Both the position numbers and the translations under genes were made by a program. Source: Methylobacter sp. (lineage in GTDB: Bacteria; Pseudomonadota; Gammaproteobacteria; Methylococcales; Methylomonadaceae). From it: a stretch of DNA of 64,000 nucleotides. The stretch spans positions 62,001 through 126,000 of the forward strand of contig NZ_JAUXVR010000026.1 in the NCBI RefSeq assembly GCF_030680395.1. Direction: 5' to 3'. Shown here piece after piece: positions 36,534 through 37,883 of the stretch (positions are counted from its first letter, which is position 1; each line of letters opens with the position of its first letter). The notes below the pieces were generated by a model that made no database searches, was not told the origin of the DNA, and saw nothing but the letters and a program-made list of their open reading frames with translations.

Positions 36534-37661
36534 CTAAACCAGTAAATTAACCAGTATCTGTTCATAAATATCGGACAAAATTCCCAAATCTTCCACGCCG
36601 ACATGCTCGTTGATTTTATGGATGCTTTCATTCAATGGACCGAGCTCGATAACCTGTGCGCCGGTCGGGGCGATAAAACGTCCGTCCGAGGTGCCGCCGC
36701 CGGTATCGTCAAGGGTTTCAAAGCCGGTAACGGTTTTGATTGCGGCATGGGCAGCATCGATTAATGCGCCCGGTTCGGTTAGGAATGGATTGCCGGACAA
36801 GCGCCATTGCAATTCATATTTGAAATCGTATTTGTCCAGTATCGCGCGGGTGCGTTGCTTGATGGTTTCTTCATCCAGTTCGGTGCAAAAACGCAGGTTG
36901 AACTGGACATTGACGCAGCCGGGGATGATGTTTTCCGCGCCGGTTCCGGCATTGATATTGGAAACCTGCAAGCTGGTCGGCGGGAAAAACGCATTACCAT
37001 GATCCCAGACTTCTTCGGTCAGGTCTTTTAAGGCCGGGGCAAACGTGTGTATCGGGTTGTCGGCAAGTTCGGGATAGGCAACGTGGCCTTGGATACCTGC
37101 GACAGTTAATTGAGCGCATAAGGAGCCGCGCCGACCGACGCGAATCACATCGCCGATTTTTTTATCGCTGGATGGCTCGCCGACCAGGCACCAGTCTATT
37201 TTTTCGTTGCGTTGTTCCAGCACTTCAACGACTTTGACCACGCCATTGGTGGCGATGCCTTCTTCGTCGCTGGTCATCATGACGGCGATAGAGCCTTGAT
37301 GGTCAGGATGATTGGCAATAAAGCGCTCGACGGCGGTGATAAAACAGGCGATGCCACCTTTCATATCCGCAGCGCCGCGACCGTAAAGCTTGCCGTCACG
37401 AATCGTCGGCTCAAAAGGCGGTGAGACCCAGGCATTCAGGGGGCCGGTAGGCACGACGTCGGTGTGACCCAGAAAGGTCAGCAGCGGTTTTGTATCGCCG
37501 CGTCTAAGCCAGATGTTTTGGGTGTCTTCAAAATCCAGGCGTTCTTCTTTGAAGCCCAGTTTGGTTAAACGTGCCGCCAGCACATCCTGGCAACCCGCGT
37601 CTTTTGGGGTTACCGATTCGCGGCTGATAAGGTCTTTAAGAAGTTCCAGTGTGTTGCTCAT
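36534..37661 (-). CDS. dapE: Succinyl-diaminopimelate desuccinylase
   Basis: 375 residues. M20 metallopeptidase: [14 protein letters not shown] (His), [15 protein letters not shown] (bridging Asp), SDEEG (Glu general base and ligand), [16 protein letters not shown] and C-terminal [12 protein letters not shown] (His). It hydrolyses N-succinyl-LL-diaminopimelate in lysine and peptidoglycan synthesis. GAGGA stands seven bases before the ATG and comes from the edge of the neighbouring inverted-repeat element. The first 23 codons are duplicated upstream at 37815-37883. dapD and dapC lie upstream in the same block. Confidence 0.97.
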
Positions 37662-37670
37662 AGTAAATTC

Positions 37671-37810
37671 CTCGTTCCCACGCGCTGCGTGGGAATGCTA
37701 TGGTGGACGCGCTGCGTCCCGTGTTTATATTGGTTACGATTTCGGATGTTACGCGTGATTCGCGGCGCAGCGCGCCTTAACTGCATTCCCACGCAGCGCG
37801 TGGGAATGAG
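37671..37810. mobile_element. 140-bp inverted-repeat (MITE-like) element in the dapE leader
   Basis: Ends are 27-base inverted repeats with one mismatch: ctcgttcccacgcgctgcgt... (37671-37697) and its complement (37784-37810). Each end is also a hairpin, ttcccacgc-gct-gcgtgggaa. No open frame. It lies between two copies of the dapE 5' end. Fragments of the same end occur near 35328 and 35450. Confidence 0.8.
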
Positions 37811-37883
37811 GGACCCCCGCATTTTTTTGGGTTACCGATTCATGGCTGATCAGGTCTTTAAGAAGATCCCGTGTGTTGCTCAT
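37749..37883 (-). pseudogene. Duplicated dapE 5' end (44-codon frame)
   Basis: Starting at ATG 37883, the frame reads MSNTRDLLKDLISHESVTQK then NAG, against [20 protein letters not shown] and DAG in dapE; it then enters the inverted-repeat element and ends at TAA 37749-37751. The ATG overlaps the stop of the upstream fusion gene as ATGA, the arrangement expected of the original dapE start. So this copy probably marks the original junction and the functional dapE was displaced by the element. Confidence 0.8.

Follow-up and report, generated by a model that had tools for sequence, protein, structure and literature searches.

A palindromic repeat element of 142 bp separates two copies of the start of dapE in Methylobacter sp., and the same architecture, a tight gene junction split by an insert and partly present on both sides of it, is found at three other junctions of the genus, for which relatives with an uninterrupted junction exist. 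The explanation that we favour, with a probability of roughly 0.6, is the insertion of an element (a non-autonomous, REPIN-like doublet of palindromes) together with a long duplication of variable length of the junction, followed by decay of the spare copy, at dapE and at the other tight junctions of the genus.

The yffB-dapE junction and its element

The window is the whole stretch of 64,000 nucleotides analysed, belonging to a genome of 4.36 Mb (G000); other G-numbers designate the relatives compared. The genes lie here on the minus strand and, along that strand, the order is upstream gene, outer copy of the dapE start, element, eight bases and working dapE:

36534-37661, minus strand: dapE, working copy, inner start at 37661; 375 aa; TIGR01246 (dapE_proteo), E 2.4e-168; start conserved in relatives
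37662-37669, minus strand: linker from the element edge to the dapE start; similar to the yffB end (AATTTACT versus AATTATT)
37670-37811, no strand: palindrome-doublet element (REPIN-like or MITE-like), 142 bp; one long hairpin; more copies in the genome
37670-37698, no strand: right arm in the gene-strand reading, palindromic by itself; inverted repeat; core pattern recurrent in G000, absent from the control
37783-37811, no strand: left arm in the gene-strand reading, palindromic by itself; inverted repeat
37815-37883, minus strand: outer copy of dapE codons 1-23, in decay; marks the original ATGA junction; direct repeat, with codon counts as given below
37749-37883, minus strand: frame of 44 codons running from the outer copy into the element and unlikely to be a gene; no Pfam match, shortened in G015
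37880-38767, minus strand: upstream gene, FMN reductase domain plus ArsC-family Spx/YffB-type domain (PF03358, PF03960; NF008107, TIGR01617)

The upstream gene, which the initial annotation took for a plain arsC, encodes instead an FMN reductase domain fused to an ArsC-family Spx/YffB-type domain. Its yffB end belongs, by class comparison, to the short C-terminal class with the ATGA overlap, and this ATGA is common to the end of the gene and to the outer dapE start. The long in-frame fusion was observed in G000, G010, G007, G013 and G001, and is absent in most other members measured. In another locus (L084) the bases before dapE hold the long-class YffB C-terminal tail (GCCAGGGATGGTGGATATGCCGCAAGCCTG...) twice, so that this tail may be a repeat inserted in the gene end.

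The direct repeat (37594-37666 and 37816-37888) comprises 73 nt with 88% identity, which bears out the earlier claim that dapE codons 1-23 flank the element on both sides. It scores 92.4 bits, whereas 150 mismatched flank pairs gave at most 58.1 and had their 95th percentile at 22.0; in a second control of 300 mismatched pairs three reached 35 bits, the maximum of 95.1 being due to other dispersed repeats. The element itself had been described as 140 bp long with inverted ends of 27 bp and one mismatch: element and mismatch were recovered, while the measured lengths are 142 bp and 29 nt (37670-37698 and 37783-37811, 97% complementary, 84 nt apart). As had also been proposed, the inner copy is the working start, its GAGGA ribosome site being formed by the linker and the element edge. 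GAGGA is found in the three composite junctions (outer copy, element and working start) and GAGA in the five other element-bearing ones; dapE is likely to start from GAGGA at the element edge, and not by overlap.

The outer copy is decaying. In the three composite genomes 5, 6 and 7 of its 22 codons carry novel non-synonymous changes and none a novel synonymous one (5 in G000; the count in G015 includes a stop and the codons after a frameshift), as against 0 or 1 unique residues in the working dapE copies of the genus, except for 4 in G016. Two of these genomes, G000 and G019, keep the 44-codon frame open, while in G015 it is reduced to 18 codons; it has no Pfam match and exhibits no sign of constraint in the three composite genomes. 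The modulating role initially suggested for it is thus not supported, and a leader function is unlikely.

As regards its distribution, the palindrome TTCCCACGCNNNGCGTGGGAA, with up to two mismatches, occurs at 52 sites in G000, the reversed control giving none and 100 shuffles of the window an expectation of 0.00 matches. The other genomic copies that had been predicted are thus present, the best 11 matches in G000 being near full-length copies, that of the window included. The element was matched in all 23 genus genomes, G000 included, and in 80 of 121 genomes sampled from the family; among the matches listed, full-length ones belong to the genus and those in other genera are pieces of about 40-65 nt. 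The ends are CTCG...CGAG, and the whole folds into one long hairpin (z -10.4 as DNA). No Rfam match was obtained within the window at gathering scores. Promoter-like matches were two, both on the other strand (0.5 expected), and terminator-like matches one (1.3 expected). Concerted change of the two arms gave no signal (1.33 versus 1.39 mismatches, p 0.15) in 43 of 50 copies, the seven without CTC at both ends being left out. At two other sites, the slot is occupied by a doublet in some species, by a single palindrome in another and by other repeats elsewhere. In L417 (G010:C54, 89-343) the palindrome core is interrupted by another repeat with ends CTCATCGTTATACACAAGTG and ACTTGTGTATAACGATGAG, apparently a second inverted-repeat element nested inside the first.

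Tight junctions in related genomes

The dapE junction was compared in 23 genomes, 21 from the genus (G000 among them) and two from the family; no dapE was obtained for G003 and G014. The composite was found in three of these 23 junctions (G000, G019 and G015). Five others (G013, G021, G009, G002 and G011) lack the outer copy and carry the element, or what remains of it, with an identical right edge; it is well preserved in G013 and degenerate in the other four. Two (G005 and G020) hold another palindrome-like remnant, seven the plain ATGA overlap without element (six by script, G024 by eye) and six neither overlap nor element. Moreover, a 4-nt overlap was found in 23 of 47 wider dapE loci, some of them from the same genomes. 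The yffB-dapE overlap is ancestral, and the outer copy indeed represents the original type of junction. The initial annotation had regarded relatives with the element and without the outer copy as evidence against itself; such relatives exist, yet they are not decisive, because at each junction there are lineages in which the spare copy has become shorter or has gone, so that element-only dapE junctions are to be expected.

The outer copies of the three composites share derived changes (codon 5 CTG to CGG, codon 19 CCA to CAA or TAA), which implies that the composite arose once. Among the 23 junctions, only that of G013 has, like the composites, AAC as inner codon 3 and the ending TTTACT; in its outer copy, G019 has GAC as codon 3, as do the element-free G010 and G007: the two halves could thus stem from different alleles.

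In G021 three further tight junctions are split by the element: FMN reductase-DUF2069, nuoK-nuoL and a pair of overlapping genes of which the last is a DUF3261 gene. In all three both genes are kept and each retains a copy of the part it needs; across genomes the inserts vary, several holding the element or its remains and others different repeats. Lengths of duplication are given as overlaps of aligned pieces, chance bases included. At FMN reductase-DUF2069, G021 has an insert of 136 bp between two 31-nt copies of AAACAATCAGCATGAnCATAAAACCGATTTA, with one mismatch, a sequence that contains the ATGA overlap of the two genes; 15 of 15 relatives, G000 and G019 among them, read uninterrupted over 360 nt. 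Inserts were present in five of the 21 genomes with a match (G004 not being among the junctions read), with duplications of 31 nt in G021, 29 in G010, 19 in G012 and none in G018 and G014; those of G012 and G018 are other repeats and not this element.

At nuoK-nuoL the duplication covers the nuoK stop and about 17 nuoL codons, and amounts to 64 nt in G021, 56 in G000, 52 in G019, 19 in G011 and 15 in G006, the junction being uninterrupted in G010 and G001. In G000 it is broken over two contig ends (L410 and L411; G000:C9 and C48) that overlap by 56 nt, and an assembly gap probably hides the insert. Finally, the duplication at the DUF3261 junction measures 56 nt in G000, 55 in G019, 49 in G021, 47 in G015, 20 in G008 and 2 in G018; G013 and G006 have an insert with no duplication, G005, G020 and G004 are uninterrupted, and G011 and G022 were matched on one side only. 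The claim that a duplication far beyond the usual target duplications accompanies the insertion is strengthened by its recurrence at these three junctions with uninterrupted relatives, and a long duplication at four junctions instead of one calls for a common cause. For the sites of L042 and L043, the script found no clean target duplication across species; at that of L042, G016 has two genes joined at ATGA, and G000 shares, by eye, only AGTATGAG on both sides.

For 89 other full-length copies, taken from G000 and 12 relatives and in part orthologous, the two flanks were also compared, with a threshold of 35 bits. Ten copies reach it; two of them (L325 and L283) proved to be cases of dispersed repeats, so that eight copies at seven loci remain, against three of 300 mismatched pairs. 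Three of these loci are the junctions described above. Among the copies reaching the threshold, L277 and L280 belong to the same locus, L300 represents a tandem array, the repeat of L308 is partly a dispersed one and that of L291 has only 20 nt. The notion that no other copy has a comparable duplication was refuted by L292 (nuoL), among the four strongest flank repeats. The remaining 81 of the 89 copies have no local flank repeat of at least 35 bits, and an exact immediate duplication of 2-14 nt was found in none of the ten other copies of G000; thus the duplication is not a fixed property of the element.

Origin and later history of the duplicated junctions

According to the favoured explanation, the junction of the overlapping genes yffB and dapE would have been duplicated as the element entered it (over 73 nt as measured, or about 80 nt counting the yffB end), so that yffB is completed by the upstream copy and dapE begins in the downstream one. 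The other tight junctions would be products of the same process, with duplications of 31 to 64 nt in the best-preserved cases. We infer that duplication and insertion were one event, which may have originated either in a widely staggered break that was then filled in, or in a replication that switched to a copy of the element and stepped back before resuming; both would yield variable lengths. The duplication might be a part of integration, or merely what survives where genes overlap: at overlapping genes, only duplications spanning the overlap would leave both genes whole and persist. Afterwards the unneeded half of each copy would decay, the dapE start shifting from the overlap to a site of its own. 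That doublets integrate by duplicating a target of 30-80 nt, with no fixed length, and so enter overlapping genes of operons without breaking either, is a tentative and rather doubtful proposition.

On at least one later occasion, ordinary recombination carried the junction from one species to another. The rpoB tree joins G000 and G019 as sisters (99/99), with G021 next (89/81), and makes G015 the sister of G008 (100/100), which lacks the composite. Of 15 diagnostic yffB sites in G015 the first eight are G008-like in seven cases and the last seven are like G000, G019, G010 and G007 (p 0.0006); in dapE, positions 1-70 are composite-like by 5:1 and the remainder gives 14:40 with two others (p 0.010). 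These switches in both genes show that the junction entered the G015 lineage in a short recombination tract. Upstream of the fused gene, the nearest relative of G000 is G021 or G019 in 12 of 14 windows, and its fusion and yffB resemble G019, G010 and G007, a mixture which points to common exchange around this locus. The yffB and dapE trees are too weak to date the event, with 3 and 4 of 20 inner branches starred, respectively.

Such exchange bears on a rival history: an element-free allele, with the short-class yffB end and dapE codons 1-23, would have been joined to an element-bearing allele by one-sided homologous plus ectopic recombination. It would account for the five junctions that carry the element up to an identical right edge but no outer copy, for the AAC codon shared with G013 and for a yffB 3' end that in the composites is 94-100% like G010/G007 over positions 270-336, and it accords with the tract in G015 and with the frequent exchange around the locus, G000 being G021-like upstream (9:2 at -1800 to -1250; 20:14 at -3600 to -2800) and G010/G007-like in yffB (5:14; p 0.007). 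However, no right border appears in dapE (G000 24:31, yffB versus dapE p 0.28; G019 13:43), erosion explains the element without duplication elsewhere, and with three other junctions built alike no special history of dapE is needed, so that this origin seems improbable.

An equally improbable order of events is that a tandem duplication of the junction, or of element and flank, came first and was followed by insertion or loss of the element. The element is indeed arrayed in tandem, along with 44-50 bp of its flank, in G021 (L303 296-740, G021:C28; unit of 190 bp) and G018 (L300, G018:C4), and tandem REPIN clusters including flanks are described for Pseudomonas in the available passages of PMC3116915; yet no duplicated junction without insert occurs among the uninterrupted ones (15 at FMN reductase-DUF2069, two at nuoK-nuoL and three at DUF3261), nor was an outer copy found by pattern search in the 47 wider dapE loci, some of them from the same genomes. 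Far less credible than either is a selected leader, in which ribosomes translating the 44 codons would melt the hairpin and so expose the GAGG site of dapE: in the predicted RNA fold (z -8.0) GAGG is indeed paired with the stem's left base, but the truncation in G015 and the exclusively non-synonymous novelties of the outer copy speak against it.

Relation to known repeats and significance

Direct repeats of IS-derived elements are generally short, known IS transposases acting with a short, fixed stagger. The nearest precedent found is YPAL (RU-2) of Yersinia, according to the available passages of PMC2229807 a small palindromic non-coding element of 168 bp with target duplications of 3-26 bp. 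The likeness, drawn from descriptions and not from sequence, resides in these features and in the variable size of the duplications, which here reach 31 to about 80 nt in the best cases and span gene overlaps. REPINs, as presented in passages of PMC3116915, are inverted REP doublets forming a hairpin, with singlets beside doublets and tandem clusters with flanks; all these traits are found here, together with high copy number and dispersal through the genus. The Methylobacter unit is longer, however, and junction duplications are absent from those passages. Moreover, the palindrome was within about 1.5 kb of a Y1_Tnp match in none of 39 loci (all ten of G000 and 29 of the genus; 141 tallied), and GTAG or CTAC lay at most 8 nt from the edge in only 2 of 50 copies; lacking both RAYT flanking and the GTAG-type tag, the element has not been filed as a REPIN. 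Among these Y1_Tnp matches no cognate transposase was found. Loose palindrome matches were seen near Y1_Tnp in L038 and L237, and L239 (1-1368, G010:C135) holds a CRISPR-like array with a 61-bp period beside a Y1 transposase match.

GTAG- and CGTC-tagged REPs are, in the available part of PMC3733652, dispersed palindromes, often dimers and some without a dedicated transposase, as is the case here; the ends differ (CTCG...CGAG) and 'methylo' is absent from the main text of that paper. Bacterial MITEs, in the part of PMC10969869 available, are shorter than 500 bp and have terminal inverted repeats and flanking direct repeats that wane with age. The present element is likewise short and non-coding with terminal inverted repeats, and a flanking duplication is long at the four junctions with empty relatives and absent or below 35 bits in 81 of 89 other copies. 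The long direct repeats far exceed those usual for IS-derived elements, and an autonomous parent was not found among the Y1_Tnp loci. In titles and abstract openings of an open library, the matches listed described neither the element family nor such junction duplications; in the same library the letters of the palindrome gave only unrelated matches, and the phrase 'long target site duplication' was absent among the matches listed for the context of overlapping genes.

To our knowledge, how REP-like repeats spread is an unresolved question. Junctions for which relatives show a clean before and after, the 31-nt case in particular, open the integration step to testing, and they show operons that have been opened up without loss of genes. 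They also caution against reading a duplicated gene start beside a repeat as a leader peptide, since it may be debris. For the repeats described here, entry into packed operons appears to proceed by duplication of the junction, with both genes left whole. If variable duplications of 30-80 nt are indeed formed in this way, they would give REPIN-like repeats a route of their own into packed operons, one on which independent starts take the place of translational coupling.
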